Shown here one piece after another: positions 1,156 to 4,439 of a DNA stretch of 35,149 nucleotides (its first letter is position 1; each line of letters opens with the position of its first letter). The notes below the pieces were generated by a model that saw only the letters and a list, made by a program, of their open reading frames with translations, was not told the origin of the DNA and made no database searches. This DNA comes from a virus: IMG/VR virus record IMGVR_UViG_3300046525_000153, positions 1-35,149 of that record; one strand, 5' to 3'. The position numbers and the translations under genes were made by a program.

Positions 1156-1402
1156 CTTTCAGGTTTCCTTGGTTCAGGTACGCGTGCGAAAATGCAAAAG
1201 TCGGGGGATGTGCGTCACTCGCCGCAGCAACGCAAAGAACGACATTCGGGTTGTGGGCGACTGCGATCTCAATCATTCGTAGTGGAACCAGCACGATCGC
1301 TGCGCTGCCTATGGCCACCCAGACCGCACGAAGAAGCCTAGATGAAGATAGACTCGGCGGCGTGCCGTAACCGCCTCTCTGACAAGGGGGGTTAGGATTC
1401 AT
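1148..1402 (-). CDS. Small predicted single-pass membrane protein
   Basis: The 84-residue reading frame starts by an ATGA overlap with the antirepressor stop and ends 8 bases inside the CsrA-like gene, so it fits tightly into the operon. That fit is the main argument that it is real. Residues about 24-50 (RAVWVAIGSAAIVLVPLRMIEIAVA) form one plausible membrane helix, and a second hydrophobic run (NVVLCVAAA) follows. The N-terminus is short and proline-rich. No family is recognised. It could instead be a chance open frame in a translated spacer. Confidence 0.45.
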   Translation of the reverse strand: MNPNPPCQRGGYGTPPSLSSSRLLRAVWVAIGSAAIVLVPLRMIEIAVAHNPNVVLCVAAASDAHPPTFAFSHAYLNQGNLKDE

Positions 1403-2106
1403 GCCGCTGCCTTTGCCAGTTCGGCGCCAATGCGAGCAATGCCCTTTGGCGTGATCCTGGCTTGCTCAACGACCTTGTCGGTTCCGTCTTCGCGTTGGAC
1501 AGTTGTGACTTTGTGGCACATGACTCCCTGTTGGATCCGGTCCTGATAGGCGAGCCAGCCGCTGTGGCCCGGGCGTTGGTAGACCCACCCCTGAGCCACC
1601 AGCCAGCGCCGAAGATCTACCGGGCGGACCTGCAGAACTTTGGCCGCGTCTCGCATGCACAGTGAGCCATCGGCAGCAGCTATCCGATGCAGCGTGGCCA
1701 CCTGCGGGGCCTGTTCTGCGACCGTTTGCTCCAAGCTGATCACTTTCTCGGTGTAGGTCAGGAGCAGGCCGCGCATCGCAGCAGGGTCGGTAAGGATCAC
1801 CATTGGATCGGGCTGAGCGACATTCGCTTCCAACTCCTGCCAGCGGTCCACCAAACGGGCGGTGAAGGCTGGAGACAGCTGGGCTACGACGATGATGCTG
1901 TCTCGCTTGCCCTGGCCGCCCGAGAAAACGTATTCGACGACCGGACGGCCAGCAGTGGGCTTCTCCTCAGCTTGAGGACAAGCAACCACTCCTTGTCCCA
2001 CAAGGGTTTCAATGGTTCGCTTCACGTTGTCGTGGCGCAGACCGACCAGCCGGGCAATCTCCCGGCTCGTAATTGCGGGCTGCGCATTCAGGATTAGGCC
2101 TTTCAT
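1399..2106 (-). CDS. Phage antirepressor with C-terminal KilAC (ANT) domain
   Basis: The 235-residue protein has an N-terminal winged-helix segment (about residues 10-45, ITSREIARLVGLRHDNVKRT) of the Rha/phage-regulator type. A linker follows (KPTAGRPVVEYVF), then a C-terminal KilAC/ANT domain (about 140-225) with the usual MRDAAKVL ... GWVYQ ... ITPKGIARI pattern. Antirepressors of this class bind or displace prophage repressors and so promote induction. The gene starts in a 4-base overlap with the Arc-like gene, so the two are co-expressed from the divergent promoter near 2341. The repressor in this prophage appears to lack the self-cleavage lysine, so an antirepressor route to induction is attractive; that link is inference. 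Confidence 0.85.
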   Translation of the reverse strand: MKGLILNAQPAITSREIARLVGLRHDNVKRTIETLVGQGVVACPQAEEKPTAGRPVVEYVFSGGQGKRDSIIVVAQLSPAFTARLVDRWQELEANVAQPDPMVILTDPAAMRGLLLTYTEKVISLEQTVAEQAPQVATLHRIAAADGSLCMRDAAKVLQVRPVDLRRWLVAQGWVYQRPGHSGWLAYQDRIQQGVMCHKVTTVQREDGTDKVVEQARITPKGIARIGAELAKAAA

Positions 2107-2264
2107 GCTGCGGCCTGCTCTTGCGAGTCCATGCCTTGATCGATGATCCGACGACAGACGTAATTCACGCTTCGCTCCTGCGTCCTAGCCTGTTGCTGGA
2201 GCCAAGCCTTCTGAGACTTGGGAACCCGCAATACAACAATCACGAAATCGTTGTCCGTAGTCAT
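2103..2264 (-). CDS. Arc-like ribbon-helix-helix DNA-binding protein
   Basis: The ATG at 2264 is preceded by AGGAGG at a 4-base spacing, a strong site, so a longer reading that starts at 2327 is rejected. The 53-residue product has a beta strand (FVIVVLRVPKSQKAWL) and two helices (QQQARTQERSVNYVCRRII), the arrangement of Arc/MetJ-type repressors that bind DNA as dimers through the strand. It is the first gene of the leftward operon, next to an inverted repeat that covers both divergent -35 boxes. It probably represses its own operon and perhaps the divergent gene. Confidence 0.82.
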   Translation of the reverse strand: MTTDNDFVIVVLRVPKSQKAWLQQQARTQERSVNYVCRRIIDQGMDSQEQAAA

Positions 2265-2315: not shown

Positions 2316-2346
2316 AGTATTTTGCATACGAAATCATGCTTGTCAA
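2316..2346 (-). promoter_or_regulatory. Leftward early promoter
   Basis: On the minus strand a perfect TTGACA lies at 2346-2341 and a weaker -10 (AATACT) at 2321-2316, separated by 19 bases. It sits about 50 bases upstream of the Arc-like gene, the first gene of the leftward operon. The spacing is longer than ideal, so activity would be weak or factor-dependent. Confidence 0.4.
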
Positions 2347-2359
2347 TACGTGATGACAA
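2340..2359. promoter_or_regulatory. Inverted repeat, candidate operator between divergent promoters
   Basis: TTGTCA (2340-2345) and TGACAA (2354-2359) form 6-base arms around an 8-base centre. The repeat overlaps the -35 boxes of both divergent promoters, so one bound dimer pair could control both directions. The two RHH proteins flanking it (2103-2264 and 2410-3006) are the obvious candidates to bind; this is inference. Confidence 0.4.
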
Positions 2360-2381
2360 ATTTCCGGTCCGCGTGTATAAG
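2353..2381 (+). promoter_or_regulatory. Rightward promoter for the RHH/SSB-tail gene
   Basis: ATGACA (2353-2358) and TATAAG (2376-2381) are separated by exactly 17 bases. Both boxes match the sigma-70 consensus at five of six positions. Transcription would start near 2388, about 20 bases before the chosen ATG. Confidence 0.55.
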
Positions 2382-2409: not shown

Positions 2410-3006
2410 ATGGCCATCAAGAAGCCAGCCCAGCCGAAGAAGGCTCCAGACCGCAAAACGGAGGTCCTATCCATCAGGATTGATCCGCGGACTCGTTACG
2501 GCTTGGAGTTGCTCTCGCGCCTGCAGCGCCGCTCTGCCACCGGGGTTGTGGAGTGGGCGGTTCAAGAGGCTTTTGCGAAAGAGGATTTCGAGTCCTACGA
2601 CCACGGATCGTTCTCAGTGGCCGACGTGATGGACGACCTGTGGCACATCAATGAGATTGAGCGTCTTGTAGCCCTCGCGCTGCGCAAGCCACAGCTGCTC
2701 ACCTTCGAAGAATCCCGTAAATGGGCTGTTCTAAAGGGAACAAAGGCGTTGTGGAAGGTTGAACCTTCAACGAGGCACGTTGATTTCAAGGCATTTAATT
2801 GGGATCTAGTGCTTCCCTTGTGGGAACGCATTGAGCCCCTGGTGGATGAGGCTGCAGAAAGATCTGTCATCCGAGGCCTGAGCCAAGAAGAGCTTTTGCA
2901 GGTCGGTATCGCAACGGTCGCGTCCCCCAAGCGCGTCGCAAGCGGCGTGACGACCGCCCCGCAATTGATGGATGACTTCGACGATGATGCCGACATACCC
3001 TTCTGA
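2410..3006 (+). CDS. Ribbon-helix-helix protein with an SSB-type acidic C-terminal tail
   Basis: The protein has 198 residues from the ATG at 2410; an in-frame ATG at 2404 would add two. A lysine/proline-rich N-terminus leads into a likely RHH segment (about residues 15-50, TEVLSIRIDPRTRYGLELL ... VVEWAVQEAF). The middle, about 60-160, is helical, tryptophan-rich and unrecognised. The last 11 residues are DDFDDDADIPF, almost the same as the end of E. coli SSB (DFDDDIPF). In SSB that tail recruits repair and replication proteins such as RecQ, PriA, ExoI, RecO and the Pol III chi subunit. No OB fold is visible, so this is not a normal SSB. It may dock on host SSB partners or mimic SSB. The role is inference; the tail is seen directly. 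Confidence 0.78.
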   Translation: MAIKKPAQPKKAPDRKTEVLSIRIDPRTRYGLELLSRLQRRSATGVVEWAVQEAFAKEDFESYDHGSFSVADVMDDLWHINEIERLVALALRKPQLLTFEESRKWAVLKGTKALWKVEPSTRHVDFKAFNWDLVLPLWERIEPLVDEAAERSVIRGLSQEELLQVGIATVASPKRVASGVTTAPQLMDDFDDDADIPF

Positions 3007-3149: not shown

Positions 3150-3428
3150 ATGGCCTACAACCTCTTCATCGCCTATGACCTCGTGCGGCCTGGTCAAAGC
3201 TACGACGCAGTTCGCGACGCAATCAAATCACTCGGACGTTGGCATCAGTTCCAGTACTCACTCTTCTACGTGAGCACTGAGCACAGCCCTGAAATGGCGT
3301 ATGCCCTGGTGCAAGCAAAGATGGATGCGAACGATAGGCTCGCCGTCATCGATGCGCAGGCGGGCATCGTCAGTGATTGGGATCGGCCGCCGATCAACGC
3401 GATCAATGCCATCTGGTTCCAACCATAG
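3150..3428 (+). CDS. Orphan Cas2-like/VapD-like small protein
   Basis: A good site (AGGAG, then AAGGG directly before the start) supports the ATG at 3150. The 92-residue protein opens with YNLFIAYDL, matching the first strand and conserved aspartate (D10) of the Cas2/VapD ferredoxin-fold group. An amphipathic helix (SYDAVRDAIKSLGRW), a second strand (FQYSLFYVST) and a final strand (RLAVIDAQA) follow. Homologues are usually annotated as SinR-family or Cas2-like proteins. No cas1 or CRISPR array is visible nearby, so a CRISPR adaptation role is unlikely. Cas2 and VapD relatives can be ribonucleases. It lies 143 bases after the SSB-tail gene and may share its transcript. Confidence 0.65.
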   Translation: MAYNLFIAYDLVRPGQSYDAVRDAIKSLGRWHQFQYSLFYVSTEHSPEMAYALVQAKMDANDRLAVIDAQAGIVSDWDRPPINAINAIWFQP

Positions 3429-3509: not shown

Positions 3510-4439
3510 TCAGGGTGTAGTTGGGGCAGGGAGGCCCTTGAATTTGTACAGAGCTCCGATTCGTTCCGCTTCCTGCTTCCCGCCAGGCAGGACCTTGGCC
3601 TTAGTCAATATGTACTTGGGGAATCGCGTAAGCAGATAGTCTTGCTTAAACCACTTCCTGAATTCCGGAAGTGCGGCGTCTGGATAGGCGGCCGGTTTTT
3701 GCGGGTTGCTTATCGCCTGGGGATAGTAGTCAGGGTAGTTGTGTTCGTACTGAATACGTTTCCCGAATGACTGCTCAAGGTTGTTATCGGCCCAGTATTT
3801 CCCCCAGGCGATTCCAACACTGATGTCAGGGATGGTCTTGTCGTTGACAGTCACGTCAGCGCTGATCAAGTCAACAATGAGGCCAGTGACTTCGCTGAAG
3901 ATCGTGAAATGCCCGTCTGGAGTGCTGTCTTTAAGGAGCGAGACCCGATCGTGGTGATACTTCCACTTATCGACCGGCGTGTACTGCAGTGAGTCGTAGA
4001 TGAACTTACGAAGCCCGAGAGCAGCGAACTGCCGAAAGTGGTTCAACGCCGTGTCGTTCTCTGCCTTAGACTCGAACGCATAGTATTCCAAGAACGCCAT
4101 GCAAACGACGTCAGGGTACGCGTAGTGGGTCGTGCCGTCTTGTATGGTCTCCAAGTGGAGCTTCTCCTCAAAGAAGCCCTTCTCGAACAAGTAGGCCTTG
4201 AAGAAGGAGATTCGGTCCTTGCCCAAAACGTTGTCTGCGTAATGGTCCTCCCATTCCTTGGTGATAGTTTGGATCACGCTTCGGGCGACGCCAGTTGCTT
4301 GGGCGAGGCCTCGCTGGGTCAGATAGGGAATTCCATTCTCCAGAATGCCCATCTCAATACCATTCACGTCCTTCTGAACCTCGATTCCGAGATCTAGACG
4401 GAGTTGCGTTGGGGCGGCCTGTTGAGGGGTGATATTCAT
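3510..4439 (-). CDS. BstA-like prophage abortive-infection protein (candidate)
   Basis: The 309-residue protein has an N-terminal part (about residues 25-150) that reads like a KilA-N-type or phage regulatory domain: GIPYLTQRGLAQATGVARSVIQ looks like a helix-turn-helix, then YAYPDVVCMAFLEYYAF. The C-terminal half is lysine- and aromatic-rich. Three things suggest the BstA family known from Salmonella prophage BTP1: a length close to BstA (~307 residues), a KilA-N-like N-terminus, and a position directly downstream of the CI-type repressor in the same operon. BstA is made in lysogens and aborts growth of infecting phages, while the prophage protects itself by an aba DNA element in or near its gene. 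Other possibilities are a Rha/KilA-N regulator. The codon use is less GC-rich than the structural genes. Confidence 0.55.
   Translation of the reverse strand: MNITPQQAAPTQLRLDLGIEVQKDVNGIEMGILENGIPYLTQRGLAQATGVARSVIQTITKEWEDHYADNVLGKDRISFFKAYLFEKGFFEEKLHLETIQDGTTHYAYPDVVCMAFLEYYAFESKAENDTALNHFRQFAALGLRKFIYDSLQYTPVDKWKYHHDRVSLLKDSTPDGHFTIFSEVTGLIVDLISADVTVNDKTIPDISVGIAWGKYWADNNLEQSFGKRIQYEHNYPDYYPQAISNPQKPAAYPDAALPEFRKWFKQDYLLTRFPKYILTKAKVLPGGKQEAERIGALYKFKGLPAPTTP

Follow-up and report, generated by a model that had tools for sequence, protein, structure and literature searches.

An SSB-tailed protein of ribbon-helix-helix type as a probable divergent repressor in phages and Pseudomonas satellites

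Bacterial SSB offers a short tail as the docking site for repair enzymes, and the locus described here raises the question of why a protein built otherwise should end in nearly the same way. The window, which is the whole 35,149-nucleotide stretch of viral DNA that was analysed (IMGVR_UViG_3300046525_000153), contains at 2410..3006 on the + strand a gene for 198 amino acids plus the stop codon, whose product, to judge by the ORF, an AlphaFold2 model and its relatives, is a protein of ribbon-helix-helix (RHH) type with an SSB-like tail. Its C-terminus reads ...QLMDDFDDDADIPF, the 198 residues of the ORF terminating in MDDFDDDADIPF, and the SSB-like tip DDFDDDADIPF to which the initial annotation had drawn attention is indeed found at residues 188-198 (2971..3003, +). 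The tip was compared with the SSB tails of eight genomes that harbour family members. The SSBs of the seven Pseudomonas genomes end DFDSFDDDIPF, and that of the one Aeromonas genome ends PPMDFDDDIPF.

The fold of the protein was assessed with an AlphaFold2 model built on 21 family sequences, which reached a mean pLDDT of 76.6 and was usable; an earlier model built on nine sequences was too poor, and fold searches with it were empty. In the model, the N-terminus forms an extended stretch followed by helices at residues 26-38 and 43-57, with a pLDDT of roughly 90 or higher for residues 21-50. A helical part spans residues 70-165, and residues 171-197 are disordered, with a pLDDT below 50. The top Foldseek match in the PDB by target TM-score was the CopG-DNA structure 1ea4 (0.80, rmsd 0.9 Å, 36 columns), P22 Arc (1b28) was matched with a target TM-score of 0.66 and 2.3 Å over 43 columns, and VapB- and ParD-type antitoxins came next after these two. 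The Foldseek E-values against the PDB were not significant for this protein, those of the RHH matches included, as is usual for a 40-residue domain. The model gives moderate evidence for the strand-helix-helix fold of the MetJ/Arc type, and the predicted RHH domain, delimited by the model and by the matches to CopG and Arc, comprises residues 16-57 (2455..2580, +). Sequence searches returned no significant match in Pfam, NCBIfam or PHROG, to a curated RHH family or to any other, and nothing significant in the PDB. The RHH domain is followed by a predicted helical domain that is conserved in the family and for which Foldseek gave no known fold (residues 70-165; 2617..2904, +), and then by a disordered linker and tail (residues 170-198; 2917..3003, +). 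An OB fold is absent from the model, which is helical, and the profile search gave no match to SSB. An RHH-like N-terminus and the lack of an OB fold had both been read from the sequence beforehand, and the nearness of the model to CopG and Arc together with these two results bears them out. The window protein resembles bacterial SSB in its flexible acidic tail ending in IPF, the tips of SSBs being disordered as well, but differs from it in having an RHH and a helical domain and no OB fold.

Relatives were sought in IMG/VR, among plasmids, in GTDB contigs and in three sets of genomes sampled around Pseudomonas (299, 369 and 398), and 56 distinct family sequences, that of the window included, were collected in addition to L117-L119. 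No relative turned up when 50,697 phage records were searched with tblastn, and the evidence therefore comes from contigs in IMG/VR, from plasmids and from GTDB genomes. When the structural region of the window was used for a DNA search, the only matches were a faecal fragment that has no annotation and a weak one to a terminase.

An acidic C-terminal tip ending in Pro-Phe is strongly developed in the window protein and in L002, and variably so across the family. L002 is a 96% relative with an identical tail; the two genes differ at 48 codons, stop included, and the changes in the last 11 residues are synonymous only, with two amino-acid changes in the linker just ahead of them. In the 59-61% relatives L007/L008 the C-terminus is different and shorter and still ends TTMDIPF, and in L008 the linker ahead of the tip is largely gone, with the tip retained. 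The strong acidic stretch is limited to the window protein and L002. Most other tip-bearing members have an [I/V]PF tip preceded by 0-3 acidic residues (RDDDCIPF, TADDLMPDIPF, DDADIIPF, VDFDTIPF, EFSDVPF and YYPEVPF), and some PF tips are less like SSB (LQPIPF, NAKPPF and FEPPF). Three members carry one to three residues beyond PF (IIPFG, IIPFPLK and YVPFK), which argues against a strict family-wide need for a free terminal Phe. The SSB-like tip is missing in the Aeromonas plasmid, Alcaligenes, coiled-coil and other distant members. The initial annotation had asked whether the DIPF end is conserved and had held that homologues without the acidic tail would speak against its reading; the Aeromonas plasmid, Alcaligenes and coiled-coil members are such homologues, and the full acidic tail does not extend beyond the window protein and L002, whereas the hydrophobic tip recurs in many relatives. 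Judging by these endings, the conserved feature is the tip and not a full copy of the SSB tail. A satellite RHH protein in L085 (reverse strand near 1209-1730) ends SPFDDDIDF, in which the acidic part is very SSB-like and Asp replaces the penultimate Pro.

An exact terminal PF was found in 16 of 35 distinct family tails, against none of the 473 other proteins of these loci, a descriptive count over related rows and not a p-value. Because the L008-type relative still ends DIPF, and because of this count, the tip of the window protein is, as far as such comparisons reach, not a chance ending. That the tip arose by chance, or as a by-product of overlap with the integrase gene, is accordingly given very little credence. 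The RHH and integrase stop codons do overlap by 4 bases in several satellites, but of the final codon just the last base lies in the overlap, which does not occur in L049 and could not operate in the window, L008 or L117, where the integrase gene is not adjacent. A PF ending forced by the overlap was rejected on the extent of the overlap, on L049 and on the count. On the gene tree, an exact terminal PF takes no fewer than 8 changes, and a PF anywhere in the last six residues no fewer than 6; long branches leave the deep order of this tree unsure, and the tip is called neither ancestral nor repeatedly gained.

The surroundings of the gene were then compared among loci. In the window, the RHH gene is divergent from a small Arc-like RHH gene oriented away from it (2103..2264, -, coordinates taken from the MTTDNDF start; phrog_3431 Arc-like repressor, E 0.001) and from the antirepressor gene ant, whose product has a KilAC domain (1399..2106, -; PF03374, E 2e-26; phrog_63, E 1.5e-56). 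Small regulator and antirepressor-type genes lie opposite the RHH gene in five phage-type loci and likewise in L117. In the window, L002 and L008 these are an antirepressor gene and a small Arc-like one, in L009 and L054 genes of Rha and Ant type together with a small regulator, and in L117 Arc-like and Ant genes. In the immI region of P22, mnt is divergent from arc and ant, and this layout, with the RHH gene in the place of mnt, recurs in the window, L002, L008 and L117. P22 Mnt, a protein of about 82 amino acids, has no SSB-like tail, whereas the window protein adds a helical domain and a tail; the Mnt models in Pfam or PHROGs gave no sequence match to it. No integrase was recognised in the window.

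Downstream of the RHH gene, a 92-amino-acid protein is encoded at 3150-3428 (+) and kept in L002 (phrog_1090, function unknown, E 7e-15); a resemblance to small Cas2/SinR-like proteins was noted, and a PDB sequence search gave no match. The gene at 3510-4439 (-) strongly matches BstA, a prophage-encoded abortive infection protein (phrog_6287, E 7e-108). Since an unrelated phrog_11791 gene occupies its place in L002 (3236-3763), the RHH gene seems to have an exchangeable slot for accessory genes at its side.

In the Pseudomonas satellites, alpA is opposite the RHH gene at all 25 loci tabulated, and int is convergent with it at 24 of the 25. A position of the PICI type, adjoining int and divergent from regulatory and replication genes, was found in these Pseudomonas relatives only and not in the window phage. 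The relatives in PICI-like elements resemble Stl/Rpr in this respect, the layout around rpr in PICIs being as in the Pseudomonas satellites (PMC6092414). They differ in that the window family is RHH, unlike the known Stl structures, and in that the RHH gene runs towards int, whereas rpr has the same direction as int. Pseudomonas islands of the AH14b and IntY-AlpA types likewise combine a tyrosine integrase with AlpA; in the portions available of the two sources, no RHH gene is described opposite alpA, and in AH14b a 318-amino-acid HflK/C-type gene sits between int and alpA (PMC4936722, PMC12595487).

Capsid and packaging genes are present in some of the satellite elements. A partial scan of L081 found terminase large subunit, portal, protease, major head protein and head closure genes, together with an O-like replication gene, an AlpA-type gene and an integrase; no tail gene was among the proteins scanned or listed for this 10.5-kb, possibly incomplete contig. 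Such a gene content fits a capsid-gene-bearing PICI. In L110 and L119 (MARPKK type), a long extension that is helix-like by eye replaces the PF tip, and the adjoining AlpA is identical to that of tip-bearing satellites, which offers a natural comparison of putative repressors with and without the tip.

Candidate regulatory sites were found between the divergent genes. In the window, the inverted repeat TTGTCAATACGTGATGACAA (2340..2359) is a candidate operator or two back-to-back -35 boxes, and is retained in L002 except for its first base. A promoter-like site for the arc-ant operon (TTGACA-16-CAAAAT; 2319..2346, -) came from a consensus scan, such a site being no commoner than in shuffles and weak on its own. 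One for the RHH gene (ATGACA-17-TATAAG; 2353..2381, +) was read by eye and scored below the threshold of that scan; L008 has a layout similar to this rightward site. Since the left arm of the repeat coincides with the -35 of the leftward site and the right arm with that of the rightward site, the repeat could simply consist of two -35 boxes. In the satellites, CAAGCAWWTGC lies between the divergent genes in 15 of 16 MATK-type loci and in the MARPKK-type L110, and ACGTCAACTG in 7 of 7 MAKNKP/MTKNKP-type loci. No locus has the motif of the other clade, and each motif occurs once, at most twice, per 10-17 kb. L082 and L109 share an identical 62-amino-acid AlpA stretch, yet their RHH proteins are only 38% identical and their motifs differ; on this comparison, the satellite motif follows the RHH protein. 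The motif as an AlpA site was set aside, since identical AlpA proteins accompany different motifs.

From the RHH fold, the divergent layout and the clade-specific motifs we infer, with good support, a repressor role, and the protein is probably a divergent repressor or autoregulator. The tail is, to judge from the loci compared, dispensable for this basic role, because the tail-less relatives L009, L054 and L110 keep the same divergent position. A decoy had also been proposed at the outset, in which the protein titrates SSB-tail-binding host enzymes from SSB or takes them to a chosen DNA site; transcription control would then be secondary. Likeness of the tail to SSB and a DNA-binding domain are what such a decoy would be expected to combine, but the constant position of a divergent regulator and the clade-specific motifs point to regulation, that position is held without a tail in the relatives just named, and repressors are usually made in small amounts and hence would be poor decoys. 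We consider the decoy unlikely and favour a regulatory role, because the gene, in phages as in satellites, has the surroundings of a divergent repressor.

For the protein as a whole, the reading that we prefer, with a probability of roughly 40%, is a repressor of the Mnt/Stl type with an SSB-tail-like docking peptide, which perhaps senses replication or recombination proteins that bind SSB tails. The RHH domain, in dimeric or higher oligomeric form, would bind DNA between the two divergent promoters of an immunity-type switch. Bound there, the protein would keep the opposite operon down, which consists of the arc-like gene and ant in the window phage and of alpA together with genes for replication in the Pseudomonas satellites. 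The flexible tip, with acidic residues followed by IPF, would serve as a docking peptide of the SSB-tail type. It could be held by SSB-tail binders, be they repair and replication enzymes of the host or proteins for replication and recombination from a phage. Such binding could alter the hold of the repressor on DNA and would couple the switch to replication of DNA or to another phage, whether helper or rival. A precedent for a recombinase-sensing repressor is SaPI2 Stl, whose repression is relieved by the phage recombinases Sak, Sak4, Erf and Redbeta (PMC5779228), and Sak cooperates with SSB via the acidic tail of SSB (PMC11846896).

The docking role of the tip is put forward tentatively. The retention of the tip in L008 despite loss of the linker and its disorder in the model speak for it; the few acidic residues in LQPIPF, NAKPPF and FEPPF count against it, and weaker docking of the SSB type would be expected where residues follow PF. 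Sensing by derepression through the tip seems doubtful, and that RHH master repressors of Gram-negative satellites and temperate phages use an SSB-tail mimic as a sensor is likewise rather improbable. In that reading, any replication or recombination protein that binds SSB tails would grip the repressor and thereby turn the element on, and a phage could not readily change such a protein without loss of its hold on SSB. Nearly as probable as the preferred reading is a divergent repressor in which the PF tip does another job, such as contacting a neighbouring subunit or an unrelated partner, the resemblance to SSB being a matter of convergence without functional relevance. In favour of this, PF is more strongly conserved than the acidic residues and is not always terminal, and in the Pseudomonas clade the tip lies close behind the last helix with a conserved [S/P]xxIVP stretch ahead of it. 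The strongest tips (DDFDDDADIPF, RDDDCIPF, DDADIIPF and VDFDTIPF) nevertheless read as SSB tails, and in the model the window tip comes after a disordered stretch of about 30 residues, clear of any folded surface.

If the tip of the preferred docking-peptide repressor binds SSB-tail receptors, this would account for the recognition of many unrelated phage proteins by a single repressor. For Gram-negative PICIs, a 2018 survey reported the master repressor as unclear, did not identify the trigger from the helper phage, and described AlpA as an activator (PMC6092414). As a concrete candidate for the master repressor of Pseudomonas satellites, the present family comes with a putative operator in each clade, and naturally exchanged pairs such as L082 versus L109 separate the role of the RHH protein from that of AlpA. 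A search of open papers found no description of an RHH regulator with an SSB-like tail, in agreement with the initial annotation, which knew of no system of this form. Should the tip bind SSB-tail receptors, we know of no earlier transcription regulator that carries a mimic of the SSB tail.

Shorter relatives were also seen. In large Aeromonas plasmids, tail-less relatives of 147 amino acids (L003 and L005) are encoded directly 3' of the conjugation gene traC, a context that differs from that of the phages and satellites. Relatives of about 97 amino acids (L060, L061, L062 and the genomes G893 and G938) reach no further than the first part of the helical domain, and occur on viral contigs and in Pseudomonas-group genomes.
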